A DNA stretch of 56,230 nucleotides from Terriglobia bacterium. Lineage in GTDB: Bacteria; Acidobacteriota; Terriglobia; JAIQFV01. The notes beneath the pieces were generated by a model. It saw only the letters and a list, made by a program, of their open reading frames with translations, was not told the DNA's origin and made no database searches. The stretch spans positions 1 through 56,230 of the forward strand of contig JAQUPQ010000026.1 in the NCBI GenBank assembly GCA_028716525.1, written 5' to 3'. Position 1 is the stretch's first letter, and each line of letters begins with the position of its first letter. Position numbers and translations under genes: made by a program. Positions 5,516-55,827 of this stretch are shown here, one piece after another.

Positions 5516-5833
5516 GCCCTGTGGGGTGCGGCGTCGCGGAGAAATTTCGCGGCCGCCGCGGACATTGGCAATCTTGATTTATTCATTTCTGAAATGGACA
5601 AACTTTTACAATTGATGGCGGGTTTGTTCTTCTTCTTTCGCGAAGTAACCTCTCCTTAGTTCCAGGCGTCATTTTTGACGTATAATGCGGTTCGAACTCT
5701 ACACAATTAGAGCCCGCCGCCGGTCGGGGAACCACCCGTCAGCGGAGTGGCAAGAATCTTGCAGGTCGTATCGTGTCAGCCTGCACCCGAAAGTTTGATT
5801 TGTGCCTATGCAAGAAACGGTGGAATTGTGTTT
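5516..5833 (+). promoter_or_regulatory. Leader of the RND efflux operon with candidate -10
   Basis: This stretch separates the terminator from the efflux operon. TATAAT at 5681-5686 is a perfect -10 hexamer, but the bases 17 positions upstream (around AGTTCC) are not a good -35; the TTGACG touching it is too close. No operator palindrome or regulator gene is visible nearby. An in-frame upstream GTG at 5747 exists within this leader. Confidence 0.35.
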
Positions 5834-7087
5834 ATGGAAACCCCAAGGACATCAGGATCTCAAGGACATGTTGAACCCGCTTCGCCGCGCCCTTCCCAAG
5901 CTGTTCCCACGCATTTGAAAAAGCCTTGGGTCTGGATTTTGGTTGTGGTGCTGATCATCGGGGGCATGTATTTTCTCCGGCCCAGAAACAGTGATCCCCG
6001 GGCTGCCGGAGCTTCTTCCAAAGGCGGCGGCGGAAAAGGCGGGCGTGAAGGAATGATCACCCCGGTCGTGGCCGCCCAAACCACGCAGGGCGACATCGGG
6101 GTTTACTTCACCGGATTGGGCGCCGTGACGCCGATTTATACCGTAGCGGTGAAGAGCCGCGTGGACGGCCAGTTGATGCAGGTCCACTTCAAGGAAGGCG
6201 ATCTCGTTCATCGCGGCGATCCTCTCGTGGAAATCGACCCCCGCCCGTTTGAAGTTCAATTGACGCAGGCCGAAGGGCAGTTGATGAAGGATCAGGCGGC
6301 GCTCGACAATGCCCGCCTGGATCAGGCCCGCTATCAAGCCTTGCTGGCGCACAATGCCGTTCCGGAGCAGCAACTGGCCACACAGAAGGCTTTGGTGGAA
6401 CAATTTCAGGGCGCTGTCAAGATCGATCAAGGCCAAATCAACAGCGCCAAGCTCAACATTACTTACTGTCACCTTGCAGCGCCCATCACCGGGCGCATCG
6501 GTTTGCGGCTGGTGGACCCCGGCAACATTGTTCATGCCAACGATGCGACGGGTCTGCTGGTGATCACCCAGATTCAGCCCATCAGTGTCATCTTTACCAT
6601 TGCCGAGGATCAACTGCCGATGGTTCTCGCGAAAATGCGGTCGCGCCGGCCTTTGACGGTGGACGCCTATGACCGCACGATGGCCACCAAGATTGCGTCC
6701 GGTACTTTATCGACCGTGGACAACGAAATCGATCAATCCACGGGCACGGTGCGAATGCGGGCGACCTTTGACAACCGCACCAACGCGCTGTTCCCCAACC
6801 AATTTGTAAATGCGCGATTGTTGGTCGAGGTCAAACATGGAGTCACGTTGGTCCCGACCGCCGCGGTGCAACGCAATTCCCAAACAACATACGTCTACCT
6901 TGTGAAACCGGATTCTTCAGTGACGGTTCGGCCGATCTCCATCGGCACCACAGAAGCCGGTGTTTCGGAAGTAACTTCAGGCCTCCAGGCCGGCGATGTG
7001 GTGGTCATGACGGGGGTGGAAAAGCTCCAGGAGGGGAGCAAGGTCAAGCCGCAGATGACCGGCGAAAAGACCGCCAGAGGAAGCTAA
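5834..7087 (+). CDS. mdtA: RND efflux periplasmic adaptor (MdtA-like)
   Basis: A 417-residue membrane-fusion protein. It begins METPRTSG and has an N-terminal anchor helix (KPWVWILVVVLIIGGMYFL, about residues 31-50), then a Gly/Lys-rich linker. The barrel-sandwich half-motif VDGQLMQVHFKEGDLVHRGDPL is followed by a coiled-coil hairpin rich in Gln and Ala, the second lipoyl half (LAAPITGRIGLRLVDPGNIV) and a beta-barrel ending near GVEKLQEGSKVKP. It bridges the RND pumps and the outer-membrane factor in the periplasm. The ATG at 5834 is chosen over the GTG at 5747 because the extension has no family content. Its stop abuts the ATG of the next gene. Confidence 0.9.
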   Translation: METPRTSGSQGHVEPASPRPSQAVPTHLKKPWVWILVVVLIIGGMYFLRPRNSDPRAAGASSKGGGGKGGREGMITPVVAAQTTQGDIGVYFTGLGAVTPIYTVAVKSRVDGQLMQVHFKEGDLVHRGDPLVEIDPRPFEVQLTQAEGQLMKDQAALDNARLDQARYQALLAHNAVPEQQLATQKALVEQFQGAVKIDQGQINSAKLNITYCHLAAPITGRIGLRLVDPGNIVHANDATGLLVITQIQPISVIFTIAEDQLPMVLAKMRSRRPLTVDAYDRTMATKIASGTLSTVDNEIDQSTGTVRMRATFDNRTNALFPNQFVNARLLVEVKHGVTLVPTAAVQRNSQTTYVYLVKPDSSVTVRPISIGTTEAGVSEVTSGLQAGDVVVMTGVEKLQEGSKVKPQMTGEKTARGS

Positions 7088-10000
7088 ATGAGCCCGTCAC
7101 GGACCTTCATTCTTCGCCCGATTGCCACGTCCTTGTTGATGATCGGGATTCTCCTCGCAGGCGCGGTGGCCTACATGCAACTGCCGGTGTCGGCCCTGCC
7201 GGAAGTGGATTATCCCACCATCCAGATCATCACATTTTATCCGGGCGCCAGTCCCGACGTGATGGCGTCTTCCGTAACGGCCCCCTTGGAGCGGCAATTC
7301 GGACAGGTGCCGGGTTTGCAGCAGATGACCTCCACCAGCTCCGACGGACTCTCGGTCATTACTCTTCAATTCAATCTCAGCCTGAACATCGACGTCGCCG
7401 AACAGGAAGTCCAACAGTCCATCAACGCCTCGGGCACCTATCTGCCGCCGGATCTGCCGAGCCCGCCCATTTACGCAAAAACCAATCCCGCCGATGCGCC
7501 TATTTTGACGTTGGCGCTGACCTCCAACGAGTTGCCTCTGACGAAGGTGGAGGATCTTGCGGACACGCGACTGGCTCCGAAAATTTCGCAGTTGCCGGGC
7601 GTAGGTTTGGTGACCATCAGCGGCGGTCAGAAACCCGCCGTTCGCATCCAGGTGAATCCCACGACCCTGGCATCTTATGGGCTGAACTTGGAGGATCTGC
7701 GCAGCGCTGTTGTGGCGGCCAATGTCAATCAAGCCAAGGGTAATTTTGATGGTCCGCATCAAGCCTATCAAATCGGCGCCAATGACCAACTGCTATCCGG
7801 CGCTGATTATTCGCCTCTGGTGGTGGCATTCCGTAACGGCTCGCCGGTAAAACTGAGCGACGTGGCCACGGTAGTGGATGAGGCAGAGAATGTTCGTCAG
7901 GCCGCGTGGATGAACTCCATGCCGGCGGTGATTGTCAATATTCAACGCCAGCCCGGCGCCAACATCATCACGGTCGTCGACCGCATCAAGAAATTACTTC
8001 CTCAACTGACCTCGACGCTGCCTTCTTCCGTGGAGGTGCACACGCTCACCGATCGAACTACCACCATTCGCGCCTCGGTGAAGGACGTGCAGTTCGAGCT
8101 CCTGCTGACGGTGGCGTTGGTGGTCATGGTTATCTTCCTGTTTCTCAGAAATATTTCCGCCACCATCATCCCCAGTGTGGCTGTTCCGCTCTCCATCGTG
8201 GGAACGTTTGGCGTGATGTACCTGCTGGGCTACAGTTTGAACAATCTGACGTTGATGGCGTTGACCATTTCCACCGGTTTTGTGGTGGACGATGCCATCG
8301 TGATGATTGAAAACATCACCCGATACATTGAACAGGGGATGCCGGCATTTCAAGCCGCCCTCAAAGGTTCGGAGCAGATCGGCTTCACCATCGTGTCGTT
8401 GACCATCTCGCTGATAGCCGTTTTGATTCCGTTGTTATTCATGGGCGATATCGTCGGACGCCTGTTTCGCGAGTTTGCCGTCACGTTGGCCGTAACCATT
8501 TTGGTGTCGGCTGTGGTTTCGCTGACCTTGACACCGGTGATGTGCTCCAAACTCTTGAAACACAAGCCCGAGGAAAAACAAACCCGGATCTTCCGCGTGA
8601 CCGAGCGGATTTGGGAATCGGTGATTCATTATTACGACCGGACTTTGAAGTGGGTCTTGCGCCATCAAACCGGGACGCTGCTGGTGGCCGCAGCGACGCT
8701 GGTATTGACTGTACTCATGTATTACTACATCCCGAAAGGCTTCTTCCCGATTCAGGATACCGGAGTCATACAAGGCGTATCGGAATCGGCAGAGACGGTT
8801 TCGTTCCAGCAGATGGCCCAGGAACAGCAGGCACTGACTCAAGTCATCCTGAAAGATCCGGCGGTGGATAGTCTTTCTTCCTTCATTGGAATCGATGGAA
8901 CCAACACCACGCTCAACAGCGGACGGATCCTGATCAATCTCAAACCGCTCGATGAACGCCGGGTCAGTGCCAGTGATGTGATTCGCCGATTGCAGCCACA
9001 ACTCACCGCTATCCCGGGTATCACGCTGTTCATGCAGCCGGTGCAGGATATCACGGTCGAAGATCGAGTCAGCCGCACCCAGTTTCAATATACCTTGGAA
9101 GACCCCAACGTCGGAGAGCTGAATACTTACGCCCCACGCATGTTGGCGGCGCTCCAGCAGGAACCGGAATTGCGCGACGTGGCCAGCGATCAACAAGACC
9201 AGGGCCTGCGGGCGCGGGTAGTAGTCGATCGCGAAACGGCCTATCGCCTGGGCATCACACCCTCGGCCATTGATCAAACGCTTTACGACGCTTTCGGACA
9301 GCGGCAGGTGTCCACCATCTTCACGCAGTTGAATCAGTACCATGTCGTCATGGAAGTGAAGCCGGACTTCCGTGAAAATCCGCTGGACTTGAATCACCTG
9401 TTCATTCGAACGGGGACGGGGGCGGCCGCCGGATCGACGGGGTTGGTAGCAGGCGGTGGGGGAGCCGCACAGTTGTTCGGTCCTTCGAGTTCACTCACGG
9501 CAGCAAACGCCAGCTTGTCGGCCACGGCGCAGGGAGTTTCCAACGCCACAGGTTCAAATACTGCCTTTGGCGGGGGCCCCATCGCTTCGTCGGCGGCTTT
9601 TCCAAACAGCGGCCAGGTACCCCTCTCAGCGATCAGTCATGTGGAGGAAGTCAGCGCCCCCATTACGGTGAATCACCAAGGGCAATTTCCCGTAGTGACC
9701 CTCTCCTTCAACTTGGCGCCCAATGCTTCGCTGGGTGATGCCGTCAAAGCCGTCAATCGGGTGAAATCGGAAATCAACTTGCCGCCGAGCATCCAGGCGG
9801 CATTTCAAGGCACGGCGCAAGCCTTCCAGTCTTCATTGGCGAATGAACCTCTGCTCATCCTGGCCGCCATTATTACGGTGTACATTGTGCTGGGTATTCT
9901 GTACGAAAGTTACATTCATCCCATCACCATTTTGTCGACCCTGCCTTCAGCCGGGGTGGGCGCGTTGCTGGCGCTCGTTCTGTGTGGGAATGATTTCAGC

Positions 10001-10387
10001 GTAATCGCATTGATCGGCATTGTGCTGCTCATTGGAATTGTGAAGAAGAACGCCATCATGATGATCGATTTTGCCCTGGACGCGGAGCGCAAGGAGAAAC
10101 TGAAGCCGATGGATGCCATTTATCAGGCCTGCCTGTTGCGTTTTCGCCCGATTATGATGACCACCATGGCGGCGTTGCTCGGCGGTGTCCCGTTGGCGCT
10201 CGGCACCGGGACGGGTTCGGAGTTGCGGCGCCCCCTGGGCATTTCCATTGTCGGCGGATTGCTGCTCAGCCAGGTCTTGACACTGTACACGACGCCCGTC
10301 ATCTACCTGTGGTTTGATCGTTTGGGCCGGCGATTTTTCGGGGAGCGAAAATCCGGGGAGAACACGGAACCGGTCCCGGTTGAGTGA
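7088..10387 (+). CDS. mdtB: RND efflux pump, inner-membrane subunit (MdtB-like) with an inserted low-complexity loop
   Basis: A 1,099-residue proton-driven exporter with the twelve-helix RND plan: TM1 near residues 10-30, a large periplasmic loop, TM2-6, a second loop, TM7-12. The proton-relay acidic pair is in [20 protein letters not shown] (TM4) and the partner lysine is in [14 protein letters not shown] (TM10). It is longer than the usual roughly 1,040 residues because of a Gly/Ala/Ser-rich insert at about residues 775-845, in the second periplasmic loop near the docking region. It is immediately downstream of the adaptor and 3 bases before a second pump gene, the arrangement seen in mdtABC, where the two pumps form a heteromer. 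Confidence 0.92.
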
Positions 10388-10390
10388 GTC

Positions 10391-13300
10391 ATGAGTTTCT
10401 CGGAACCTTTCATACGCAGACCGATTGCCACGACGCTCTTGATGGTGGCAATTGCTTTGGCCGGAGCTGTGGCTTTTCGACTGCTTCCGGTCTCGCCGCT
10501 TCCTCAAGTGGATTTTCCGACAATTTCAGTGCAATCGGGTCTGCCGGGCGCCAGTCCTGAAACGATGGCATCCGCTGTAGCAACTCCCTTGGAGCGCCAA
10601 TTCAGCCGCATTGCCTCGGTGAGCGAGATGACCTCCTCGAGCACGCTGGGCTCCACCAACATCGTGTTGCAATTTGATTTGAATCGCGACATCAATGCGG
10701 CGGCACGCGACGTTCAGGCTGCCATTAATGCCGCGCGCGGTAATCTGCCGTCCAATCTTCCCAATAATCCCACGTATCGAAAAGTCAATCCTGCCGACGC
10801 CCCGATCTTCATGCTGGCTCTAACCTCGGACGTGCTCAGCAAGGCCCAGATGTACGACTCGGCCTCCTCGATCATGGCGCAAAAGCTGGCGCAGGTGGCG
10901 GGCGTGGGACAGGTGATCGTCGGCGGGGGTGCTTTGCCCGCCGTCCGGATTGAACTGAATCCCACGGCCCTCAATAAATATGGTATCGGATTCGAACAGG
11001 TTCGAAGCGTTTTGAACAGCGCCAATGCCAATACCCCCAAAGGGCATTTATCCGACGATCATCAAACCTGGCAGGTCGGAGCCAACGACCAGCTGTTCAA
11101 AGCTGTGGATTATGAGCCGCTCATTGTGGCGTACCACAATGGAACCGCGGTGCGAATTTCTGATATCGGGCGGGCCCAGGATCTTCCTGAAGACATTCGC
11201 AATGCCGGCTATGCCAACGGCAAACCCTCGGTGTTGATCATCATTTTTCGCCAGCCCAACGCCAACATCATCGACACGGTGGATGGCATTCGCGCCGTCC
11301 TCCCGCAGCTGCAGGCGGCCATGCCGCAATCGATCAACATGCGCGTGGCCATGGATCAGACCGTGACCATTCGGGCCTCCGTCAGAAACGTGGAGGAAAC
11401 CCTCCTCATTTCCGTGCTTCTCGTCATCCTGGTGGTGTTTGTTTTTTTGAAGAATCCGCGAACGACATTCATTCCCAGTGTGGCCGTTCCAATTTCACTC
11501 ATTGGAACGTTCGGTGTGATGTACCTCTTGGGTTACAGCCTGGACAATCTGTCGTTGATGGCCCTGACGATTTCTACAGGCTTCGTGGTCGATGACGCCA
11601 TCGTGGTGATCGAAAACATTACGCGCTATTTGGAAAAGGGCATGCACCCGTTTCAGGCCGCGCTCAAAGGGGCGAAAGAAATCGGATCCACCGTCGTGAC
11701 GATGAGTCTTTCACTGGTGGCGGTGTTCATTCCCTTGCTGCTGATGGGTGGAATCGTGGGGCGGTTGTTCCGGGAATTTGCGGTGACGCTGACGATCGCC
11801 ATCGTGGTGTCCATGGTCGTTTCGCTCACCGCCACACCGACCATGTGCGCTCATCTGCTGAAGGAACATGAGACGCATGGCCGGCTCTATTACTGGAGCG
11901 AACGAGCCTTCAACGCCGTGGTCAACGCTTATGGCCGAACGTTGAAGACCGTTTTGAACTACCCGGCCATCACGATGCTGGTGTTGTTGGCCACGATCGC
12001 CGTCAATGTGTATCTTTATATATACGTCCCCAAGGGGTTTTTCCCCCAGCAGGACAACGGCCGCATCTCGGGATCGGTTCAAGCGGATGAAGGGACTTCC
12101 TTCCAGGCGATGAACAAAATTCTGGTGCGGATGATCAACATCATCATGCAGGACCCGGCGATCGATACGGTCAACGGATTTACCGGCGGCGGGACAGGAA
12201 ATACCGCCCGCATGTTCATCTCCTTGAAACCCCCGCAGCAGAGAAAGATCTCGGCAGACCTCGTCATTGCCCGGCTGCGGCCAAAACTTTCGAGCGTCCC
12301 CGGAGCTTCGCTTTACCTTCAAGCGAACCAGGATGTCCGCGTCGGAGGGCGGTTTGGCGGAGCTCAATATCAGTACACCATGCGCGGTGACAATTTGAAG
12401 GACTTGCAGGATTTTGCCCCCCGCATGCTCCGGCAGTTGAGAACTCTTTCGGTGATTGCGGATGTGAACAGCGATCAACAGGATCGGGGTTTGCAGGCGT
12501 ATCTGGAGTACGATCGGGAAACGGCGGCGCGCTTCGGCATCTCACCGCAACTCATCGACACCACGCTTTACGACGCTTTCGGTCAGCGTCAGGTGTCGAC
12601 CATGTACAGCACCTTGAATCAGTATCATGTGATTATGGAAGCAGCGCCGGAGTATTGGCAGGATCCTCAATTCTTGCGCGAAATTTATGTGCGCGCCCCC
12701 AACGGGAAACAAGTGCCGATCGGCGCCTTCACGCATTACACTCCAATCACGGCGCCTCTGGCGGTAAGCCACCAGGGTCTGTTTCCCGCTGTGACCCTTT
12801 CATTCAATCTTCGCCCCGGAGTGGCACTGGGCGATGCCGTCAACGCCATCAACTCGGAAGGGACAAAGATGGGCCTGCCTCAGACCATCCACACCGGCTT
12901 CGCGGGAACAGCTCAGGCCTATCAGGATTCCCTGGGAAGCGAACCCTTGCTCATTTTGGCAGCCCTGGTTGCTGTGTACCTGGTGCTGGGAATTCTTTAT
13001 GAAAGTTATATTCATCCGATCACCATTCTTTCGACCCTGCCTTCGGCGGGTGTTGGAGCCCTGCTGGCATTGTTGCTGACGCGCACAGAACTGACCGTCA
13101 TCGCGGTTATTGGAATCATTTTGCTGATCGGCATCGTGAAGAAGAATGCCATCTTGATGATCGATTTTGCGCTGGCTTCAGAACGCAATGAGGGCAAGAA
13201 CTCGCGCGATTCCATTTATGAAGCCTGCCTGTTGCGCTTTCGCCCCATCATGATGACCACCATGGCCGCCATGTTGGGCGCCACTCCGTTGGCCGTTGGA

Positions 13301-13489
13301 ATGGGAGTGGGATCGGAGTTACGCCGTCCGCTGGGAATCGCCATCATCGGCGGGTTGATCGTCAGCCAGCTGCTGACGCTGTATACCACGCCGGTGGTCT
13401 ATCTCTATTTCGATCGCCTCCAACACTGGTGGTACCGGATCCGTTCAAAGAGCCCCGGACCGATCGAGCCGCTGGGCTCGCAGCCGTGA
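10391..13489 (+). CDS. mdtC: RND efflux pump, second inner-membrane subunit (MdtC-like)
   Basis: A 1,032-residue RND protein of standard length, clearly paralogous to the preceding gene (shared [20 protein letters not shown] in TM4 and [18 protein letters not shown] in TM10). It lacks the long inserted loop of its partner. In MdtBC-type pumps two non-identical RND chains assemble into a mixed trimer. The order adaptor-B-C here supports the same organisation, exporting drugs, bile-salt-like compounds or metal-chelate-type substrates; the substrate cannot be read from sequence. Only 3 bases separate it from the upstream stop and 7 from the next start. Confidence 0.92.
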   Translation: MSFSEPFIRRPIATTLLMVAIALAGAVAFRLLPVSPLPQVDFPTISVQSGLPGASPETMASAVATPLERQFSRIASVSEMTSSSTLGSTNIVLQFDLNRDINAAARDVQAAINAARGNLPSNLPNNPTYRKVNPADAPIFMLALTSDVLSKAQMYDSASSIMAQKLAQVAGVGQVIVGGGALPAVRIELNPTALNKYGIGFEQVRSVLNSANANTPKGHLSDDHQTWQVGANDQLFKAVDYEPLIVAYHNGTAVRISDIGRAQDLPEDIRNAGYANGKPSVLIIIFRQPNANIIDTVDGIRAVLPQLQAAMPQSINMRVAMDQTVTIRASVRNVEETLLISVLLVILVVFVFLKNPRTTFIPSVAVPISLIGTFGVMYLLGYSLDNLSLMALTISTGFVVDDAIVVIENITRYLEKGMHPFQAALKGAKEIGSTVVTMSLSLVAVFIPLLLMGGIVGRLFREFAVTLTIAIVVSMVVSLTATPTMCAHLLKEHETHGRLYYWSERAFNAVVNAYGRTLKTVLNYPAITMLVLLATIAVNVYLYIYVPKGFFPQQDNGRISGSVQADEGTSFQAMNKILVRMINIIMQDPAIDTVNGFTGGGTGNTARMFISLKPPQQRKISADLVIARLRPKLSSVPGASLYLQANQDVRVGGRFGGAQYQYTMRGDNLKDLQDFAPRMLRQLRTLSVIADVNSDQQDRGLQAYLEYDRETAARFGISPQLIDTTLYDAFGQRQVSTMYSTLNQYHVIMEAAPEYWQDPQFLREIYVRAPNGKQVPIGAFTHYTPITAPLAVSHQGLFPAVTLSFNLRPGVALGDAVNAINSEGTKMGLPQTIHTGFAGTAQAYQDSLGSEPLLILAALVAVYLVLGILYESYIHPITILSTLPSAGVGALLALLLTRTELTVIAVIGIILLIGIVKKNAILMIDFALASERNEGKNSRDSIYEACLLRFRPIMMTTMAAMLGATPLAVGMGVGSELRRPLGIAIIGGLIVSQLLTLYTTPVVYLYFDRLQHWWYRIRSKSPGPIEPLGSQP

Positions 13490-13496
13490 GATCAGG

Positions 13497-15068
13497 ATGC
13501 AGGTTATGAAATTCAACATCATGTTGCCCGGGAAAATCGAAAAGAACATCGGAAATTTTGATTGGATGCCGCGAAGTCGGAAATTGTGCGTAGCCTTGCT
13601 CGCGAGCACGCTGCTTTTTTCTGTTGCCTGCCTGGTGGGACCCAAGTACCAACGGCCCCCGGCACCGACGCCGGAGGTCTATAAGGAAAAACCGCCGGAC
13701 TACTTCTCGCAGGCTGCTGAGTGGAAACCCGCTACCCCCAACGACGGGGCGCCGCGCGGAAAATGGTGGGAGATTTTTGGTGACCCGCAGCTCAATCAAT
13801 TGGAAGAGCAGGTCAGCATTTCAAATCAGAACATCCTGGCCGCCGAGGCCCAATACCGCGCGGCTCGGGAAGTGGTGCGGGTCGCCCGATCAGGATTATT
13901 TCCCACCGTCAGCACTTCGCCCTCCGCGACGTTTTCCCACTCGTCTGCAAATCTTTCCAGTGCTTCGGCCGGCTCCGGCACCCGAACCGGCGGATCAACC
14001 TCCAGCGTCAATCAGAATTACAACTTTCCGGTCGACCTCACGTACCTGGTGGATATCTGGGGCAGTATCCGTCACAGCGTTCGACAAAGCACCGAAACGG
14101 CTCAGGCCAGCTATGCGCAACTGGAAAATGCCCGCTTGTCGTTTCAAGCCGAACTGGCGGTGGCCTATTTTCAACTGCATGGGGTCGACGGGGTTCATGA
14201 TTTGTTGGAGCGCACGGTCAAGTCGTACGAAGACAATCTGCAGTTAACCAAAGATCGTTTCAACAGCGGTGTGGCCTCGGGAGTCGACGTGGCGCAGGCC
14301 GAAGCTCAACTGAACAACACGCGGGCGGAGCTCATCGATTTGGGAATTGCGCGCGCCCAGTTTGAGCATGCCATCGCTATCCTGACCGGAAAACCGCCTG
14401 CGGGTCTCAGCGTTCCCGTCAATCCCATCAAAGCCGTTCCTCCGGCGATTCCTGTAGGTATTCCTTCGACTCTCCTGGAACGCCGCCCCGACATCGCCGT
14501 GCTGGAGCGACAGATGGCAGCCGCCAACGAGCAAATAGGTATTGCGACGGCTGCGTTTTATCCTGCGCTGACTCTCGGGGCCGCCGGCGGTTTTGAAGCC
14601 GGATCGATTGCCAAGTGGTTTGCCTGGCCCAGTCGATTCTGGTCGGTGGGACCGCAACTGGCCGAGACCCTTTTTGATGCCGGCAAACGACGTGCGCAGG
14701 TCGCCGAGGCCCAGGCTATTTACGACGCCACGGTCGCCAACTATCGCCAAACGGTGTTGGTGAGTTTCCAGCAGGTGGAAGATGCCTTGGCGGCCTTGCG
14801 CGTGTTGGACGATGAGACCAACGCTCAGAACGCCGCCGTTCAGGCCGCCGAGCAGTCTCTGGATATTTCCAATTATCAATACAAGGCCGGAACGGTGAGC
14901 TATCTTCAGGTGATTACGGCACAAACCACCGCACTGCAAGCAGAGATCAACGCCATTAATCTTCTGACCCGCCGCATGGTTTCGTCCGTGCTGTTGATTG
15001 AAGCGTTGGGCGGTGGCTGGGATGCGTCGTCAATACCGACGCCCGCCGCCGTTTTGCCCGGCAAATAA
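13497..15068 (+). CDS. Outer-membrane efflux lipoprotein, NodT/OprM family
   Basis: A 523-residue TolC-fold channel. A basic N-terminus is followed by a lipoprotein signal, ALLASTLLFSVAC, with the lipidated Cys at about residue 42, then VGPKYQRPPAP, the classic start of mature NodT proteins. Two repeats of the outer-membrane-efflux domain follow; the second contains GIPSTLLERRPDIAVLERQM and LFDAGKRRAQVAEA, diagnostic for the family. The repeat near residues 140-170 is Ser-rich. It completes the tripartite RND pump encoded by the three upstream genes; E. coli mdtABC lacks its own channel, so here the system is self-contained. Hairpin repeats beginning at 15133 probably terminate the operon. 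Confidence 0.92.
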   Translation: MQVMKFNIMLPGKIEKNIGNFDWMPRSRKLCVALLASTLLFSVACLVGPKYQRPPAPTPEVYKEKPPDYFSQAAEWKPATPNDGAPRGKWWEIFGDPQLNQLEEQVSISNQNILAAEAQYRAAREVVRVARSGLFPTVSTSPSATFSHSSANLSSASAGSGTRTGGSTSSVNQNYNFPVDLTYLVDIWGSIRHSVRQSTETAQASYAQLENARLSFQAELAVAYFQLHGVDGVHDLLERTVKSYEDNLQLTKDRFNSGVASGVDVAQAEAQLNNTRAELIDLGIARAQFEHAIAILTGKPPAGLSVPVNPIKAVPPAIPVGIPSTLLERRPDIAVLERQMAAANEQIGIATAAFYPALTLGAAGGFEAGSIAKWFAWPSRFWSVGPQLAETLFDAGKRRAQVAEAQAIYDATVANYRQTVLVSFQQVEDALAALRVLDDETNAQNAAVQAAEQSLDISNYQYKAGTVSYLQVITAQTTALQAEINAINLLTRRMVSSVLLIEALGGGWDASSIPTPAAVLPGK

Positions 15069-15097
15069 GAAACCGGTTGGAAGGTCCATTCACAGGG

Positions 15098-15618
15098 CTT
15101 GATTCCCTCTTGCTAAGCAATTGATCGATGCAAAACCCCGTTCACGGGGTTTTGTTATCTCAGCCCGCCGGTTTACCGGCGGGAGGCGAGATGCATCTCT
15201 TTTGTAGGGAAGCCGGGGTTTGAGAGCCTCGTTCACGGGGATTGATTCCCCTTTGCCCAGCAAGTGATCGATTCGAAACCCCGTTCACGGGGTTTTGTTA
15301 TCTCAGCCCGCCGGTTTACCGGCGGGAGGTGAGATGCATCTCTTTTGCAGGGAAGCCGGGGTTTGAGAGCCTCGTTCACGGGGATTGATTCCCCTTTGCC
15401 CAGCAAGTGATCGATTCGAAACCCCGTTCACGGGGGTTTGTTATCTCAGCCCGCCGGTTCACCGGCGGGAGGTGAGATGCATCTCTTTTGCAGGGAAGCC
15501 GGGGTTTGAGAGCCTCGTTCACGGGGATTGATTCCCCTTTGCCCAGCAAGTGATCGATTCGAAACCCCGTTCACGGGGGTTTGTTATCTCAGCCCGCCGG
15601 TTTACCGGCGGGAGGAGA
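15098..15618. repeat. 143-bp tandem repeat with two hairpins per unit
   Basis: Units begin at 15133, 15276, 15419 and 15562 (taking AAACCCCG as the start), giving an exact 143-bp period; the last unit is partial, and a diverged unit end precedes the first. Each unit has a hairpin AAACCCCGTTCACGGGGTTT and, 11 bases later, CCCGCCGGTTTACCGGCGGG, then GAGGTGAGATGCAT and GTTCACGGGGATTGATTCCCC. Differences between units fall in loops or at stem ends (TTTA to TTCA; an extra G). There is no gene inside. The first hairpin could also terminate the efflux operon. Confidence 0.9.
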
Positions 15619-15638
15619 GATCCATATCAGCCTCGGTT

Positions 15639-15855
15639 CTTTTCACGCCGTAACGCCAGCCCGCTTTAGCGGGCGAAATCTTTAGAATGATCAAAGCCTA
15701 CATTGCACTGTGCCGCCCCCTAAACGGGGCTCGAAAATGAAATGGAAATCGGGGAAGGGTGGTGCGTTTTTCTTTCCCGCCGATAAATCGGCGGGCTGAG
15801 GAAGGCAAGCCTCCTGAAGGAGGCTGAATTTTGAAGGTCGCGGATAAATCAGATC
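15639..15855. repeat. Multi-hairpin module, copy 1
   Basis: Four palindromes in a row: GCCCGCTTTAGCGGGC (15659-15674), GCCCCCTAAACGGGGC (15715-15730), CCCGCCGATAAATCGGCGGG (15776-15795) and AGCCTCCTGAAGGAGGCT (15808-15825). They are joined by spacers of about 12-45 bases. The same series in the same order recurs at 19030-19263, beyond the Cys-rich/TonB-receptor gene pair. No open reading frame fits. The remaining bases up to 15952 show nothing recognisable. Confidence 0.85.
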
Positions 15856-15952
15856 CCTCCTCGTTTCACCGCCGCTTTAGAGCAGGCTCAACTCCTCCAA
15901 CCGTGTTATACTGAAAACTCACTAAATAATTTCCCGCGGTGATGATTCCGTC

Positions 15953-16360
15953 ATGCTAAAGCGGCACGTTAAGGCATGGATCCTGTTGATGGTCTTTCTG
16001 GCCATGGAGGGGAGCTGGATGCCGTCTTCCCTTCGTGACACAGCCACTAAACCGTGTTGTCCCATGCCGTGTTGTGCGGGCGGCATGTGTCCGATGCGTG
16101 GCATGACGGGGCATTCTGAGGAGGCCTGTCCTCGCGGGCGGAATGTGAAATCAACCCACGGACTGGCTTGTTCCTGTTCACTGTCTGAAGGTGCGGGTAA
16201 GATTCTGCCGGGAGTTCGTGGAGACTTTCTCTTTCAATGGGCTCCCTCAACGCAGCTACCGCCGCCTCTTATTGTGAAGTCGTCGACTGAGGCGTTTCAA
16301 GTTTCTTCTTTATCCGGCCACCGAGACCCCCCGTTTCATCCTCCCAAACCTTCCTGCTGA
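15953..16360 (+). CDS. Exported Cys/Met/His-rich small protein, probable metal-binding
   Basis: A 135-residue protein with a signal peptide (MLKRHVKAWILLMVFLAMEG). The mature N-terminal part is packed with soft-metal ligands: KPCCPMPCCAGGMCPMRGMTGHSEEACPRG, with further CSCS and a C-terminal HRDPPFHPPKPSC. Such composition is typical of periplasmic copper- or other thiophilic-metal-binding peptides encoded beside TonB-dependent receptors; the metal is inferred, not shown. The receptor gene starts 61 bases downstream. The pair is enclosed between two copies of the hairpin module, so it may be an acquired unit. I do not recognise a named family. Confidence 0.6.
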   Translation: MLKRHVKAWILLMVFLAMEGSWMPSSLRDTATKPCCPMPCCAGGMCPMRGMTGHSEEACPRGRNVKSTHGLACSCSLSEGAGKILPGVRGDFLFQWAPSTQLPPPLIVKSSTEAFQVSSLSGHRDPPFHPPKPSC

Positions 16361-16421
16361 TTCAGACCCTTTCAGTCTGGAACTGTTTTTCGCGAACGTG
16401 TCGACTTGTGAGAGGTGAGCC

Positions 16422-18638
16422 ATGTTCTACAGGCTTGTTTTGTGTGTTTTTCTTTCTTCTTTGCTTTGTGCGGTCACAGTTTTGGGGACCATTTTTTCGC
16501 ACGTGCGAGGTGTGGTGCACGATCCACAGCATTTGCCGATTGCCGGAGCTCAGGTGACGCTTCGAGCAACGTCTTCAGATTGGTCTCGGGAGACCGTCAC
16601 GAATTCCGAGGGGGTATTTGAATTCGCCACCGTTCCGTTGGGAGATTACCAAGTCACCATTGCGGCCTCCGGGTTCGTCAGCCTCCAACAGAAATTCAGT
16701 GCGGTTTCGGGAAGTTCTGCGATCCTTCATTTTCCCATGAAAATTGTTCCTCCCGGGCAAACCGTCACTGTTTCCGAGCAGGCACAAAATGTGGATGCCC
16801 AATCGTCTGCAGTTCCAGTCACCATTGGCCGTGGGCAGATCGACCGTATGCCCGGCGCCGACCAATCGAACAGTTTGGCGATGATTACGGATTATGTTCC
16901 CGGGGCGTACATTGTTCATGATCTACTCCACGTGCGTGGCGGGCATCAAGTGAGCTGGCTGGTTGACGGCGTTCCCGTTCCCAATACCAACATTGCCTCC
17001 AACGTCGGCCCGCAATTTGACCCGAAAGATGTCGATTACATCGAAGTTCGCCGAGGAGGGTTGTCTGCTGACTATGGCGATCGAACCTATGGGGCTTTTA
17101 ATGTGGTACCTCGCTCCGGCTTTGAGTTCAACCGCGACGGGGAGATTCGGGTCAGCTATGGTAATTTCAACACGACCAATGATCAGATCAGTTTCGGCGA
17201 TCACACCCAGCGATTTGCGTATTATTTCAGTCTGAATGCCAATCGCTCCGACTTGGGGTTGGAGACCCCGACGTCGGATGTGATTCATGACATCGCCGCG
17301 GGCGGCGGCTTCTTCGCATCGCTCTTCTACAACATTACACCTCAAAACCAGTTGCGCCTGGTGGCTTCGGCGCGAGGCGACCATTACCAGATTCCCAACG
17401 CACCGGATCAGCAGAGCGCGGGCACCCGCGATCTCGATCTCGAACGCGACGCCTTCGTGAATCTGTCATGGATCCACACGATGGGTTCAGGAGTCCTGCT
17501 CACGGTGTCACCGTACTATCACTTCAATCGCGCCAATTATGAAGGGGGTGCTGGCGACCTGCCGGTGATTCCGCAACAAGAAAACACCGCCAATTACGCG
17601 GGTCTTCAATCCACGCTGTCTGTCGTAAAACAAAAGCATAACGCGCGATTCGGTGTCGATGTTTTTGGCGAGCGGCAGAATGACTTCTTTGGTCTCGTAA
17701 TGCCCGGTTCAACAGCGTCGAATTTGGCAGAACGAGTTTCGGTGTGGGGAAATCATGAGGCGATATTCCTCGAGGACCAATTCCGATTAACCTCCTGGTT
17801 GACTTTGAATGGCGGAGTACGGTTGACGCGCTTCGCCGGTGATCTCACGGAGACGTCGGTTGACCCCCGCGTAGGTGGGGCGCTGCGATTGCCGCGTCTC
17901 GGATGGGTGTTGCGGGGATTCTATGGACGGTATTATCAGGCGCCGCCGCTCGTCACCATCGAAGGTCCGATCCTGAGCCTTGCCGCTTCGCAAGGTTTTG
18001 GATTTCTCCCCCTGCACGGGGAACGTGACGAACAACACGAGTTTGGTTTGACCATTCCAATCCGTGCGTGGACGGTGGACGTAGCCAATTTTCGGACCGC
18101 CGCCAGAAACTTTCTCGATCATGATGTCCTCGGCAATTCCAACATCTTCCTCCCACTCACTCTCCAGCGCGCGCGCATCCGCGGTTGGGAATCCACTGTC
18201 CGCTCGCCTCGGTTGTTGAGCCGAGTCAATATTCACCTGGCTTATTCGCACCAATTCGCTGAAGGGCGGGGAAGCATCAACGGCGGATTGACGGATTTCA
18301 GTCCCCCCGTCAATCGATTCTTTTTCCTCGATCACGATCAGCGCAACACGCTCAGCACGGGATTTGATGCCGACCTTCCGGGGAAAATGTGGCTCGGGAT
18401 GAATGTGAGTTACGGTTCCGGATTCCTCGACGGAGACGGGCCGCAACATCTGGCCTCACATGCCACTGCCGATATTTCGCTCGGAAAATCTTTCGGCAAG
18501 AATTGGTCGATTAGTGCTTATATGCTCAACCTGGCTGATCGCCGCTACCTTTTGGACAACAGCAACACCTTTGGGGGAACCCATTTCGCCAACCCGCGGC
18601 AAGCGGCTGTCGAAATTCGATATCGTTTTCACTTTTGA
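16422..18638 (+). CDS. TonB-dependent outer-membrane receptor with carboxypeptidase-regulatory-like domain
   Basis: A 738-residue protein. A signal peptide (FLSSLLCAVTVLGTIFS) is followed by a CarboxypepD_reg-like domain at about residues 28-115 (VRGVVHDPQHLPIAGAQVTLRA, TVPLGDYQVTIAASGF), a plug domain (LLHVRGGHQVSWLVDGVPVP, IEVRRGGLSADYGDRTYGAFNVVPRSG) and a beta-barrel. It ends in Phe (IRYRFHF), as required for barrel assembly. It imports a ligand across the outer membrane using TonB energy. The preceding Cys/Met-rich exported protein suggests a metal or metallophore. The start follows GAGAGGTGA. Confidence 0.85.
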   Translation: MFYRLVLCVFLSSLLCAVTVLGTIFSHVRGVVHDPQHLPIAGAQVTLRATSSDWSRETVTNSEGVFEFATVPLGDYQVTIAASGFVSLQQKFSAVSGSSAILHFPMKIVPPGQTVTVSEQAQNVDAQSSAVPVTIGRGQIDRMPGADQSNSLAMITDYVPGAYIVHDLLHVRGGHQVSWLVDGVPVPNTNIASNVGPQFDPKDVDYIEVRRGGLSADYGDRTYGAFNVVPRSGFEFNRDGEIRVSYGNFNTTNDQISFGDHTQRFAYYFSLNANRSDLGLETPTSDVIHDIAAGGGFFASLFYNITPQNQLRLVASARGDHYQIPNAPDQQSAGTRDLDLERDAFVNLSWIHTMGSGVLLTVSPYYHFNRANYEGGAGDLPVIPQQENTANYAGLQSTLSVVKQKHNARFGVDVFGERQNDFFGLVMPGSTASNLAERVSVWGNHEAIFLEDQFRLTSWLTLNGGVRLTRFAGDLTETSVDPRVGGALRLPRLGWVLRGFYGRYYQAPPLVTIEGPILSLAASQGFGFLPLHGERDEQHEFGLTIPIRAWTVDVANFRTAARNFLDHDVLGNSNIFLPLTLQRARIRGWESTVRSPRLLSRVNIHLAYSHQFAEGRGSINGGLTDFSPPVNRFFFLDHDQRNTLSTGFDADLPGKMWLGMNVSYGSGFLDGDGPQHLASHATADISLGKSFGKNWSISAYMLNLADRRYLLDNSNTFGGTHFANPRQAAVEIRYRFHF

Positions 18639-18713
18639 ATAGTCCCAATCTCTGTGCTTACGTTTTGGAATAGCCGCAATCTCATTGTTTGAGAACGAAA
18701 TCAGGGAGATCCC

Positions 18714-19024
18714 TCTCTTTTGCACGGGGGCGGGGTTTCAGAGACCCGCTCACGGGCCTTGACTCCCGTTTGCCCAGCAAATGAGTGATCGATACGAAAT
18801 CCCGTTCACGGTGTTTTGTTATCTCAGCCCGTCGGTTTACCGGCGGGACGATAAGTTCATATTACTTGTTCCTTTCAGGCTGTAAATCTTATCCGTCCAG
18901 CGCGGGAGTGAGGTGTGTCTTTTCGTCAAAGAGCAGCAATGCATTCGATAGAGTTCATGAGCCCCTTTCACGGGGTTTTGTTATCTCAGCCCGCCGGTTC
19001 ACCGGCGGGAAGTGAGATGCATAT
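18714..19024. repeat. Diverged copies of the 143-bp hairpin unit
   Basis: The stretch 18714-18850 aligns with the unit found at 15133 onward (GGGGTTTCAGAGACCCGCTCACGGG, TTTGCCCAGCAA, GTGATCGAT, CCCGTTCACGG, TTATCTCAGCCCG, CGGTTTACCGGCGGG). A second partial unit runs from about 18950 to 19024 with CCCGCCGGTTCACCGGCGGG and AGTGAGATGCAT. Stems of the first unit are damaged, so this copy is older or less constrained. About 75 bases before it (18639-18713) show no feature. Confidence 0.8.
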
Positions 19025-19029
19025 CGCCC

Positions 19030-19263
19030 CATCAGTTTCTTCACATTGTGATGACAGCTCGCTTTAGCGGGCGAAATCTTTAGATTAATCGAGGAGAATA
19101 CTCTGCCTGCGTTGCAATGTGCCGCCCCCTAAACGGGGCTCCCAAGATAAATTGGCAATCGGGGAAGGGTTGAGCGTTTTTCTTTCCCGCCGATAAATCG
19201 GCGGGCTGAGAAAAGCAAGCCTCCTGAAAGAGGCTGAATTCAGAAGGTCGCGGATAAATCATA
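19030..19263. repeat. Multi-hairpin module, copy 2
   Basis: The same order as copy 1: CTCGCTTTAGCGGGCGAAATC, GCCGCCCCCTAAACGGGGCTC, CCCGCCGATAAATCGGCGGGCTGAG and AGCCTCCTGAAAGAGGCT, then GGTCGCGGATAAATCA. It is in direct orientation relative to copy 1, and the two enclose 15953-18638. Confidence 0.85.
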
Positions 19264-19676
19264 TCCCTTCTCCTTTTCTGGATCCCTTATAAGGACGAAG
19301 ATTTGTGTTGTTTAACCATTGGAGATCTGGCGGCCCGACCCGTCCTCCAGGGTCGGAGGTGGTTCATGCCAGCACTTCAAGAGGTCCGGATAGATCAAGA
19401 TGCTCTTCCTTTGCTGAATTTCTTATCAGATCGCGCGCCTTTCAAGCAGCCCCAGGGCTGGTAGGTTGACTCGCCCTGCTGGGTCGGGTTCAATCCGGCC
19501 AGCACTGGGAATCGAGTTTATACTCGTTACGAAATTCCCCGGCCTAAGAACGAACCTGTCCGATAGGGTCAGGGCTAGGACTACCAGAATCCCATTTGAG
19601 AATTGATTTCAGTCGAAGACCCTTGCAGCCGCTTGAACACTGGGCTAGCATGGCATCTTCCCCAAGGAGGACGGCC
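19264..19676. other. Intergenic stretch with small palindromes, no gene seen
   Basis: Contains CCGACCCGTCCTCCAGGGTCGG followed by AGGTGGTTCATG, CAGCCCCAGGGCTG and CGAGTTTATACTCG. There is no convincing reading frame. It may be remnants of the neighbouring repeat family or the leader of the HEAT-repeat gene. Confidence 0.4.
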
Positions 19677-40182: not shown

Positions 40183-40284
40183 CTACTGCCAAGTAAATGG
40201 AAATTGCCACAGATTTAAAGGTATAATTCCAGCTCGAATTTCACGCTGGGCTGCATTACGATATTGACATGGAAAGATGAGTTC

Positions 40285-40857
40285 ATGGCTTCGATTCCCG
40301 GGAACCGCTTGAAATGGATTTCAACGACGCTATGCGGGATCGTGGGGTTTTGTGTGGCGGGCAGTATCCTGCTGGCGGCTTCAGTGCCCGCCAGGATTAT
40401 TCGGACCAACCCTCCGCGGGAGCGTGTGTACAACCTCAATGCTTCGCGATGTGAATTCCCTCAGTCCATCGATATTACGTTCGATAAAGACATCGACCCG
40501 TCTTCTCTGACCTTGGACAATATTTTTGCCGTTCCGCAAGGCGAGGGATGTGCTGTCGGGCAGATCAAAACAGCGGGTGTTTGCCTGGCGTATGATCCCT
40601 GTCTGGATGCCGCGCCGACCTACAGCAAACAAACCCGCACGGCTTCCATCCATTTTGTGTTGACCGAGGGCATCGTTTTTGTATACGTCAACGCCGGAAT
40701 GGCCCGGTGCGGCGCGAATGTGCAATTGATTCGAGGGGCCGACGGGCAGATCATCGATGGCGACGGCGATGGCAAACCCGGCGGCAGCTATGTTTTCTCC
40801 TACAAGGTCGTCAACGGCCCGCGTGCAGCAACCCAGGCTCCGCGAAAGAAGAAGTAA
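40285..40857 (+). CDS. Exported Ig-like (Big_5/SbsA-type) domain protein
   Basis: A 190-residue protein from the ATG at 40285 (GGAAAG upstream). It has a signal-type helix (TTLCGIVGFCVAGSILLAASVPA), then RTNPPRERVYNLNASRCEFPQSIDITFDKDIDPSSLTLDNIFAV, which matches the SbsA Ig-like/Big_5 pattern that frames a strand of the fold with FDKDIDPSSL. Several cysteines suggest disulfides. The C-terminus has IIDGDGDGKPGGSYVFSYKVV and a basic tail. The role is probably structural or adhesive at the cell surface; no specific function is visible. Confidence 0.65.
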   Translation: MASIPGNRLKWISTTLCGIVGFCVAGSILLAASVPARIIRTNPPRERVYNLNASRCEFPQSIDITFDKDIDPSSLTLDNIFAVPQGEGCAVGQIKTAGVCLAYDPCLDAAPTYSKQTRTASIHFVLTEGIVFVYVNAGMARCGANVQLIRGADGQIIDGDGDGKPGGSYVFSYKVVNGPRAATQAPRKKK

Positions 40858-40860
40858 AAC

Positions 40861-41196
40861 CAGCCTCTTTTGGAAATTCCAAAATCCAAGCACCAAAATC
40901 CAAATAAATTCCAATTACCAAAGTTCAAATGAAAACAAGGTAAAAGACAATTCCAAAAACAGGTTCTGTTTGACTTTTGGAGCTTGGATTTTATTTGGAA
41001 TTTGGCTTTTGGAATTTGGATTTTGCTTCACTTCATGTGCATCGTGCAGCGGGACTCGAGGTGTCACTATATTCTGTCCTGCTCTGTAGATAAGAAGCAA
41101 TTCGAAGAACAGGTTCTGTTTGACTTTTGGAGCTTGGATTTTATTTGGAATTTGGCTTTTGGAATTTGGATTTTGCTTCACTTCATGTGCATCGTG
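40861..41196. repeat. TTTGGAATTTGG-type repeats with a perfect 89-bp direct duplication
   Basis: The stretch 40958-41046 is repeated exactly at 41108-41196, 150 bases apart. The repeat is A/T-rich and built of TTTGGAATTTGG words. An inverted relative (CCAAAATCCAAGCACCAAAATCC) lies at about 40878-40915. The right copy runs into the 3' end of the radical SAM gene and supplies its last codons. Confidence 0.85.
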
Positions 41197-42587
41197 TAGC
41201 TCAACTGGGAATGGGCGACGGAGTGGGACGCCGGCAGAAACTTCATCGATCGCATATTCTTGAGGATATTGAAAAATTCATTTGGCGTATAACCGCTGGG
41301 GAGCACCCGGACTCCCAGTTGCTGCTCCAGATCGGCGCGATGCATGTCGTCGAGCATCAGGTAATCTTCGTTGATCATGGCTTCGGAGGGGATCATGACA
41401 AACTCACCGGTGATCTTATCTTGAAGCGCTTCCAAAATATCCCGGCCGGTCAATAATCCGGCTACCGTAATTCCTTTTCCGAAAAACCGGTTTTCCACCG
41501 GCCACACTTCCAGCCGGGATCCAAAACGCCGATTGAACCTTTGGATGGATTGTTCAAGCACAGGCCCAAAGATCAGCCCGGTGACCAGGGTTCCTTTCAG
41601 CCCTCGAATTTCGTCGACCGGTTTTCGTCGCAGAATGTTGGTGAACCCATCAAGAAATTGCCGGGCCATTCCCACCCCGTTTTCCAAGAGCGGAAAATCG
41701 GCATAGTGCGAGCGGGACGGGAGGGGTTCATTGGCCATCAGATAAAACTCGTCTCCCAAATAGGCGAAGGCGTTTCCCGCCGTTCTCTTGAACTCGTCCT
41801 GAAACGGTTTCACAAATTCAATGGTGCGGCGGGCATAAGCTGCATCGACAGGGTCCATCGCGGGGACGCGACGCCGATGATCGGTCAACCCGAGGGGAAC
41901 AATGGCTACTGAAAGTACCCCCGGATGGAACTCCAACAGATCCCGGAGGGTGCGGACCAGATGCTCCCCGTCGTTCCAGCCCGGACACAACACCACTTGC
42001 GTATGCAACTGGATGCCGTGATCGATCAATCGCTTCATGCGGCCCAGAAGATCATCCTGAACACCCGGGAAGGGCCGCAATAATTTTTCGCGGATCTCAG
42101 GCTCTGTGGCGTGAACGGAGATGTAGAGCGGCGAAAGCCGTTGTTCAATGATGCGGTCCATCTCCGCTTCGTTGACGTTGGTGAGCGTCATGTAATTCCC
42201 GTACAGAAACGCCAGTCGAAAATCTTCGTCTTTGATCCACAGGGTTTTTCTGGACTGCCGGGGCAGTTGGAAGACAAAGCAGAACACGCATTGATTCTTG
42301 CAGAGCAGCGTTTGAATCTCTTCGAGGTCAAATCCCAACTCACTCTCGCGGGCGGTTTTCAGCCGGATCCGTTTGAGTTGTCCGTCTGAAGATCGAAGCA
42401 CGAGAGTGCAATCTGATTCCCGCTCGCTGAGATAAAACTTCAGATCCAGAACATCGTGCACCTCATGGCCGTTTACGGCCAATAATACGTCCCCGGACTG
42501 AATTCCGGCCGTGGCGCTCGGCGACGAAGCTTCTACCGCGACAATGCGCGCGCCCACCGTGGTGTTGTGTTTCAGGGTGCTGCCCAT
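41178..42587 (-). CDS. DUF512/PDZ radical SAM protein
   Basis: A 469-residue protein. A PDZ-like N-terminus (VGARIVAVEASSPSATAGIQSGDVLLAVNGHEVHDVLDLKFYLSE) is followed by a radical SAM half-site CKNQCVFC (Cys96, Cys100, Cys103), which binds a 4Fe-4S cluster and SAM, then ISVHATEPEIREKLLRP and a DUF512 C-terminal domain (GVGMARQFLDGF, GLIFGPVLE). Members of this family are conserved but not biochemically defined. The last few codons (about YTMHMK) fall in the 89-bp repeat, so the C-terminus has probably been changed by repeat insertion. It is divergent from the PBP1A gene. Confidence 0.88.
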   Translation of the reverse strand: MGSTLKHNTTVGARIVAVEASSPSATAGIQSGDVLLAVNGHEVHDVLDLKFYLSERESDCTLVLRSSDGQLKRIRLKTARESELGFDLEEIQTLLCKNQCVFCFVFQLPRQSRKTLWIKDEDFRLAFLYGNYMTLTNVNEAEMDRIIEQRLSPLYISVHATEPEIREKLLRPFPGVQDDLLGRMKRLIDHGIQLHTQVVLCPGWNDGEHLVRTLRDLLEFHPGVLSVAIVPLGLTDHRRRVPAMDPVDAAYARRTIEFVKPFQDEFKRTAGNAFAYLGDEFYLMANEPLPSRSHYADFPLLENGVGMARQFLDGFTNILRRKPVDEIRGLKGTLVTGLIFGPVLEQSIQRFNRRFGSRLEVWPVENRFFGKGITVAGLLTGRDILEALQDKITGEFVMIPSEAMINEDYLMLDDMHRADLEQQLGVRVLPSGYTPNEFFNILKNMRSMKFLPASHSVAHSQLSYTMHMK

Positions 42588-54310: not shown

Positions 54311-54516
54311 ACCCCGCCGGAATCCAAGAATATGGATTTCTTCTCGTCACTTGTCACTAACCACTTTTCACTGTTCTCGGCCACTATTCACTCTTTTCTG
54401 CCCTTGTGATTTGACCTCTCTCCACCAAGACCGTATGATTTATAAACGCTCCAACTAACGTTTGTTGGTAACGCGCGGAACGCGCCTCACGGGAAGTAGT
54501 GCTTCCAGGAGTGAGT

Positions 54517-55827
54517 GTGATAATTCTCATTGTCATCCTTTTACTCGTTTTATTCCTGCTGTCGATGCTTTCCTCCTCCGCAGAGACGGCCCTGTTTGCG
54601 GCGAATCGGTATGACATAAAGGCGCTGGCCGGGAAGGGGAGCCGTCGCGCCAAGCTTGTCCTGGCAATCCTCAAGCACCCCGAGCGCGTCTTGGCAGCTC
54701 TACTTTTTCTCAACACCTTGGCTAATGTGTCGATGGCGGCCATCGTTACGACTCTGGTGGCGGACTGGGTATCCGAATTGCACCGCAATCTGGCGTTGAT
54801 CCTTACGACCGTGGTTCTGACGATTGTGTTGCTGATCTTTGCAGAATTTGTTCCCAAGACTTTTGCGGCGCGTCATGCCAACCGTCTGGCATTGGCATTG
54901 ATCCAACCTCTGCGGGTGGCTATGGCGGTTTCGCTGCCGGTCATTCGGATTGGGGAACTGCTCGGACGGAGGCTCTTGGGCAGCAAAGCTGAGGAGTCGG
55001 CCAGGGAGGCGATTGCCTCGGAGGTGGTGCTGCAATCGTTGATCGATGAATCCGCTGCCACAGCCGGTGTCGAGCGGCACCAGATGTTGCGCGGTGTTTT
55101 GGCCCTGTCAGATTTGGCCGTCAAGGCGGTGATTATTCCGCGTTCGCAGATCACAGCCGTCCCGCTCGAGGCCACTCCGGAGGAGATTTTGGAGACCATT
55201 CGAACCACCGGCTACAGCCGCATTCCTGTGTACCGCGGTGACCTCGACCATATTGCCGGCATTCTTCATTCCAAGGATGTGCTGCCTCGCCTCATGCAGC
55301 AGATGGGTCAAACCGGCCCGGTGAAGGAAGGACTCAAGCTACAGACCATCATGCGCAAGCCGTTGTTCGTCCCCGACAGCGCCAAGGTGGATCAAACCTT
55401 GAAGTACATGCAGAAGAACCATATTCATATGGCTGTCGTGATTGACGAGCACGGCGGCGTGGAGGGCCTCGCCACGCTGGAAGATTTGCTCGAACAAATC
55501 GTGGGCGAGATTCAAGATGAGCACGACTTTGAATTGGATTCCATTCGTCGGCTGGCCAATGGAACGGTGTTGGTGGATGCCGACGTTTCGATCCGTGAAA
55601 TTAACAAACGCTTGAAATGGGAATTGCCCGAATCGAACCACTACTCCACCTTGGGAGGCTTCTTGATGGCCCATACGGGGCGACTCCTTCAGGAGGGTGA
55701 TCGGGTGCAGTATGAACACAGGCGCTTCACCATCAATGCCACGGAAGGCCGTCGATTGGTCAAGATTTTGGTGGAACCGAATATAAGGACTGACACCTTA
55801 CGTTTGACGACCGAGGGTGATCGATGA
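54517..55827 (+). CDS. CNNM/CorC-type (HlyC-like) membrane transport protein
   Basis: A 436-residue protein. The GTG at 54517 has AGGAG five bases before it; further in-frame GTGs lie at 54499 and 54511. N-terminal CNNM (DUF21) domain with four TM helices (VILLLVLFLLSMLSSSAETALFA, LFLNTLANVSMAAIVTTL, NLALILTTVVLTIVLLIFAEFVPKTF, LIQPLRVAMAVSLPVI), two CBS domains (IIPRSQITAVPLE through HIHMAVVIDEHGGVEGLATLEDLLEQIVGEI), and a CorC/HlyC transporter-associated domain after it. Members handle Mg or Co. The last 13 or so codons are repeat-derived (see the terminal tandem repeat), and the TGA overlaps an ATG as ATGA. Confidence 0.88.
   Translation: MIILIVILLLVLFLLSMLSSSAETALFAANRYDIKALAGKGSRRAKLVLAILKHPERVLAALLFLNTLANVSMAAIVTTLVADWVSELHRNLALILTTVVLTIVLLIFAEFVPKTFAARHANRLALALIQPLRVAMAVSLPVIRIGELLGRRLLGSKAEESAREAIASEVVLQSLIDESAATAGVERHQMLRGVLALSDLAVKAVIIPRSQITAVPLEATPEEILETIRTTGYSRIPVYRGDLDHIAGILHSKDVLPRLMQQMGQTGPVKEGLKLQTIMRKPLFVPDSAKVDQTLKYMQKNHIHMAVVIDEHGGVEGLATLEDLLEQIVGEIQDEHDFELDSIRRLANGTVLVDADVSIREINKRLKWELPESNHYSTLGGFLMAHTGRLLQEGDRVQYEHRRFTINATEGRRLVKILVEPNIRTDTLRLTTEGDR

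Follow-up and report, generated by a model that had tools for sequence, protein, structure and literature searches.

The two repeat blocks that flank a Cys-rich/TonB-receptor gene pair in the DNA studied here are probably neighbouring copies of one palindromic repeat, which is lineage-specific and non-autonomous and belongs to the REP/BIME or double-palindrome TIR kind; a Y1 transposase would have seeded it in trans, and the gene pair would be a bystander. The blocks lie in a stretch of 56,230 nucleotides, analysed as a whole (hereafter the window), from a host described as a soil bacterium, and the hairpin-rich repeat of which they consist is scattered through its genome. A preliminary description of the window had stated that direct copies of a composite hairpin repeat, alike in order and orientation, surround exactly two genes and encode no transposase. 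These statements are borne out: the repeats align over 575 bp at 76% with the same order and orientation, the two genes (15953-16360 and 16422-18638, coordinates correct) are the only open reading frames (ORFs) between the blocks, and neither block holds an ORF of at least 100 aa. On our account the element is mobilised in trans, which would explain the lack of a transposase in the blocks. The features of the locus are as follows (bit scores are those of covariance model R1).

15089-15628, minus strand: left tandem array, 3.8 units of 143 bp with one two-hairpin doublet per unit (TRF and repeat search)
15133-15184, minus strand: doublet 1, CCCGCCGG stem-loop, CTGAG, AACCCCG stem-loop (79 bits)
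15276-15327, minus strand: doublet 2 (79 bits)
15419-15470, minus strand: doublet 3 (76.8 bits)
15562-15613, minus strand: doublet 4, which is also the left end of the left core element (76.6 bits)
15562-15826, no strand assigned: left core element, inverted doublets enclosing internal hairpins
15659-15674: internal hairpin 1 of the left core element, GCCCGC/GCGGGC
about 15715-15730: internal hairpin 2 of the left core element, GCCCC/GGGGC, read directly off the sequence
15775-15826, plus strand: right-end doublet of the left core element (74.9 bits)
15953-16360, plus strand: small Cys-rich protein, probably secreted, 135 aa, no Pfam or NCBIfam match
16422-18638, plus strand: TonB-dependent receptor with an N-terminal carboxypeptidase-regulatory-like domain, 738 aa (Pfam PF00593, PF07715, PF13620)
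18706-18790, minus strand: degenerate remnant of the tandem-unit linker in the right block
18797-18848, minus strand: extra diverged doublet of the right block (63.7 bits)
18959-19010, minus strand: left-end doublet of the right core element (71.4 bits)
18959-19236, no strand assigned: right core element, single-stranded DNA fold z -4.3, 78% to the left copy
19185-19236, plus strand: right-end doublet of the right core element (74.3 bits)

The left block (15089-15866) comprises 3.8 tandem 143-bp units followed by a hairpin module, and the right block (18706-19276) comprises diverged units followed by the same module. TRF places the left tandem array at 15089-15625 (period 143, 3.8 copies, 95% matches). 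Repeat comparison within the window aligns the common module at 85% identity (15716-15866 with 19126-19276) and a second matching stretch at 82% (15642-15692 with 19040-19090). The repeat lies far above chance, since a 23-base hairpin pattern allowing up to 3 mismatches gives 15 matches in the genome versus 0 for the reversed control. Both blocks are old, as they are only 76-78% alike and exactly identical over at most 37 bp; recombination across that longest exact match is physically possible and could excise what lies between. Elsewhere in the window, an 80-bp tandem repeat of 5.7 copies occupies the window end (55777-56230) and overlaps the 3' end of ORF 54499-55827, and short repeats (AAAATCCAAGCACC, TTTGGAATTTGGAT) lie at 40881-41175 between ORFs 40264-40857 and 41178-42587. 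An apparent RND-type efflux operon (5747-15068), with genes for a membrane-fusion-like protein, for two large transporters side by side and for an outer-membrane factor (OEP), lies immediately upstream of the left block.

When copies within the window are compared with those beyond it, the basic unit of the repeat proves to be a 52-nt doublet. Its first stem-loop (CCCGCCNN-loop-NNGGCGGG) is separated from its second (AGCCNNN-loop-NNNGGCT) by, in this order, the foot CTGAG and a short spacer. A minus-strand doublet, internal hairpins and a plus-strand doublet make up a core element of about 265-280 bp, one per block, whose inverted doublets are 213-227 bp apart (182-227 bp over all minus/plus doublet pairs placed by the covariance model); extra minus-strand left-end doublets together with the linker make up the left tandem array. 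The earlier division of the blocks into tandem units and a shared module can be refined: the 'four-hairpin module' is the right part of a symmetric element, the left end of which is the last tandem unit. The stems carry compensatory changes. Across 16 copies, 5 of 15 base pairs are altered on both sides yet still paired, there are 23 double-change cells where shuffling gives 5.2 on average and reached 23 in none of 500 runs, and pairing collapses in a control with slid arms. Folded as single-stranded DNA, the right core element forms a single long hairpin in which one end is paired with the other.

Such covariation, together with the position of the blocks downstream of genes (the left array begins about 21 bp past the stop of the efflux gene), would also be expected if the hairpins were kept as RNA or DNA signals, i.e., mRNA 3'-end stabilisers, transcription attenuators or supercoiling sites, and were not a mobile element. 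We consider this improbable: single-stranded DNA hairpins recognised by HuH enzymes are equally expected to covary, the copies follow unrelated genes, and an Rfam search of the window returned no family. Intrinsic terminators were considered separately and rejected, with 5 terminator-like sites against 6.2 in shuffles and therefore no excess.

The element is dispersed. With the covariance model, the window's own genome yields 32 doublets, distributed over 18 sites (E<1e-4; the model was trained on own-genome copies and its E-values are rough), and the two sister genomes yield similar numbers. An exact pattern for the large hairpin matches 20, 15 and 15 times in the own genome and the two other genomes of the same family, respectively, and neither in 58 other genomes of the class nor in the reversed control; the exact pattern with CTCAG has no match in 84,980 GTDB genomes, a set from which the own genome may be absent, and so gives no sign of a wider spread. 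Solo copies in dimers or clusters form a repeat family. The sister genus has the element as a symmetric unit of about 270 bp. The copies are mosaic, since in a sister genome a second repeated sequence of roughly 170 bp is joined to them (L096 2414-2585, L097 2385-2500, L090 2697-2850).

Sites are also clustered, with 5, 5 and 2 neighbouring pairs within 5 kb in the three same-family genomes versus 0.36, 0.44 and 0.31 at random. The copies examined at C34 and C13 in the own genome and in the window are all intergenic. Elsewhere than at the pair, neighbouring copies enclose unrelated single genes, namely those for MacB/FtsX-like permeases at C34 and, at C13, for a tetrapyrrole methylase and a CAAX-protease-like protein, so two copies around one or two genes are usual for this element. 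Because doublets also occur far away in the genome, the flank of the Cys-rich/TonB pair is not locus-specific.

These observations bear directly on the main proposal of the preliminary description, namely that the blocks are the ends of a composite mobile unit whose cargo, the Cys-rich/TonB pair, is excised, amplified or moved with them. Several observations fit: exactly two genes lie between copies of the same orientation, left and right core elements are mutually closest among the copies aligned (78% to each other versus about 55% to the others), and the place of the pair is unrelated to that in any relative examined. However, the preliminary description had itself named a module at many sites not linked to gene pairs, together with a pair never missing in relatives, as speaking against its proposal, and this largely applies, since most of the 18 sites found in the genome are unlinked to this pair. 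What stands is that each block is a direct copy of an element of a mobile kind; that they form a single mobile unit with the pair is unsupported.

The distribution of the genes points the same way. The receptor is present in 26 of the 61 genomes searched (own genome counted), its named relatives being metagenome assemblies of Terriglobia and other Acidobacteriota, and many class members carry the pair at unrelated places without these repeats, as judged by the exact pattern. The pair is an old two-gene unit, because almost every one of 12 receptor loci examined in relatives has a small Cys-rich ORF ahead of the receptor. In none of 60 relatives is the pair linked to the efflux gene found upstream here or to the HEAT gene found downstream, although the pair locus of one relative has a distant efflux homologue. 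A junction lacking the pair, looked for by way of these two genes, was seen in none of them, a search that has no power given this loss of synteny; nor does any relative examined carry the same unit elsewhere. Both sister genomes have the element, yet it has no pattern match beside their pair. By identity the closest relative of the receptor lies in another family (63% in genome G027 versus 60% in the sister genus), which would suit a mobile pair, but its position in the receptor tree is weakly supported (85/80) and the GC content of the pair (54.8%) equals that of the window (54.9%). Given these last two observations, we do not claim horizontal transfer of the pair.

The C34 locus gives the sole hint of exchange around such repeats. 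Here two MacB/FtsX-like permeases (L017 2645-9153 in the own genome, G000) are 40% identical overall, whereas their ends are 89-91% identical and carry the element. This permease region contains three element copies, and the ends look homogenised around a variable middle. Even with this hint, and in view of the age of the blocks, we judge the composite mobile unit highly improbable, and genes moving with the repeats find no positive support. A further version, which the C34 permeases might suggest, is that recombination or a HuH transposase uses the blocks as ends and the pair can thereby be lost, regained or swapped as a cassette, so that a REP-like element would serve gene-cassette exchange in Acidobacteriota; this seems to us extremely improbable.

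A different relation between the two blocks deserves more weight. One block may derive from the other by local segmental duplication or recombination, the pair being inserted later or caught between them, with no action of a transposase at the locus. The full version of the module shared by left and right blocks is confined to this locus within the genome, so the blocks may be related by local duplication and not by two insertions; the tandem-unit linker common to both and the clustering of sites within 5 kb are in line with this. However, no similarity was found between the sequences flanking the two blocks beyond the repeats, which would require the boundaries of any duplicated segment to coincide with those of the repeats. 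On balance we regard local duplication as the origin of the two blocks as unlikely, though a serious contender.

Our preferred explanation, seeding of a non-autonomous repeat in trans, draws on an association of the element with a transposase gene in the sister genus. Both sister genomes contain an intact Y1 gene of 157 aa, 91% identical between the two (L104 3271-3744, L089 2984-3457), with two to three direct doublets upstream, 92 bp apart, and an inverted doublet downstream. The protein has the HVH and Tyr motifs and passes the Pfam cut-off for Y1_Tnp (PF01797). It also passes the NCBIfam IS200 profile NF033573 (74.6 bits, cut-off 55) but fails the REP-transposase profile NF047646 (24.4 bits, cut-off 80). 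This locus is at the identical chromosomal place in both sister genomes.

Comparison of the sister genomes further provides one occupied/empty site. A segment of 451 bp that includes the element in G002 (L090 2697-3147) corresponds to 20 bp in G001 (L194), with flanks aligning at 83-87%, and at L097 half of the element is absent in G001. Most of the sister-genus sites compared are common to both genomes, and at L093 the homologous flank is too short for an empty-site comparison. The L090 and L097 sites demonstrate presence/absence and internal loss, not direction; the occupied/empty site is a single, unpolarised case, and G001 may have lost the segment by deletion.

In the window's own genome there are 10 Y1_Tnp genes, several of them within arrays of their own with different palindromes. 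Since none of the 10 in this assembly (96.5% complete) is framed by CTCAG doublets, that a Y1 transposase of the sister-genome type moves the copies here is something we infer. The nearest case is an element copy beside the C5 Y1 gene's own array of different palindromes. Related Y1 transposase genes, 76% identical, are found at L019 4282-5425 and L022 1872-3149, each inside its own tandem palindrome array (steps of about 145 bp and 158 bp), and the L022 array is adjoined by a doublet of the window's family. The palindrome foot is CTCAG in the own genome versus GTACAG in the sister genus, and because of this difference the two sets of doublets may be separate subfamilies.

Among known systems, TIRtrons would appear to be the best fit. 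These were described, including in Koribacter versatilis, as Y1 transposase genes (TIRYT) flanked by long, partly double-palindromic TIRs, accompanied by families of solo TIRs (PMC3733652). Compared with that published description, the likeness lies in long palindromic inverted repeats, distinct from GTAG REPs, on both sides of an IS200-like Y1 gene (seen in the sister genus but not in the own genome), in solo copies occurring elsewhere in dimers and clusters, and in the host group, Acidobacteria. In contrast to TIRtrons, each end of our element is a two-hairpin doublet with tandem amplification, and no matching transposase was found in the window's own genome.

The element also resembles REPs, BIMEs and REPINs, for which ordered tandem arrays including flanking DNA (PMC3116915) and the enzymology with RAYT, or TnpA-REP (PMC8266576), have been described: small intergenic palindromes occur in many copies, inverted pairs fold into one hairpin, tandem arrays include flanking DNA, and a Y1 gene is flanked by repeats. 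However, a core element of about 270 bp is larger than a REPIN. Because the foot is CTCAG or GTACAG and not GTAG (GT[AG]G), and the partner protein scores under the REP-transposase cut-off, unlike a RAYT, and over the IS200 one, we call the element REP-like and not a REP in the strict sense.

Class 3 TnpA-Y1 proteins, a class of Acidobacteria and Planctomycetes, are in Acidobacteria likewise associated with high-copy hairpins, about 600 copies in Solibacter (PMC6006769), and match in phylum, in a Y motif followed by Q and in several hairpin copies around the gene. Their described foot, CnGA 5' of the hairpin, is not seen in that position here; CTGA is seen solely on the 3' side of the big hairpin. 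With MITEs of the IS200/IS605 type the element shares its non-autonomous nature, palindromic ends common to a transposase-bearing locus and an occupied/empty site, but its copies are mosaic and variable, and the transposase-bearing locus looks fixed (one place in both sister genomes) and not like a multi-copy IS. A composite transposon differs in that its flanking copies would encode the transposase.

Taken together, we propose the following course of events. The ends of the single-stranded element would fold, and an IS200/IS605-like HuH Y1 transposase supplied in trans would cut and join these folded ends and so seed the element into intergenic DNA. Later tandem duplication of 143 bp, presumably by replication slippage or unequal recombination, would have multiplied the left-end doublet, and the gene pair enclosed would be a bystander and not cargo.

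Proteobacteria are the group in which REP-like palindromes and their partner Y1 transposases have been described best. The present family adds a lineage-specific case from Acidobacteriota, with inverted two-hairpin ends, compensatory stem changes, a transposase locus in the sister genus and an occupied/empty site, and it offers cutting assays a transposase and hairpins that occur together in nature. It also shows that direct copies on either side of genes, such as those around the Cys-rich/TonB pair, can result from local clustering and are not to be taken for composite transposons.
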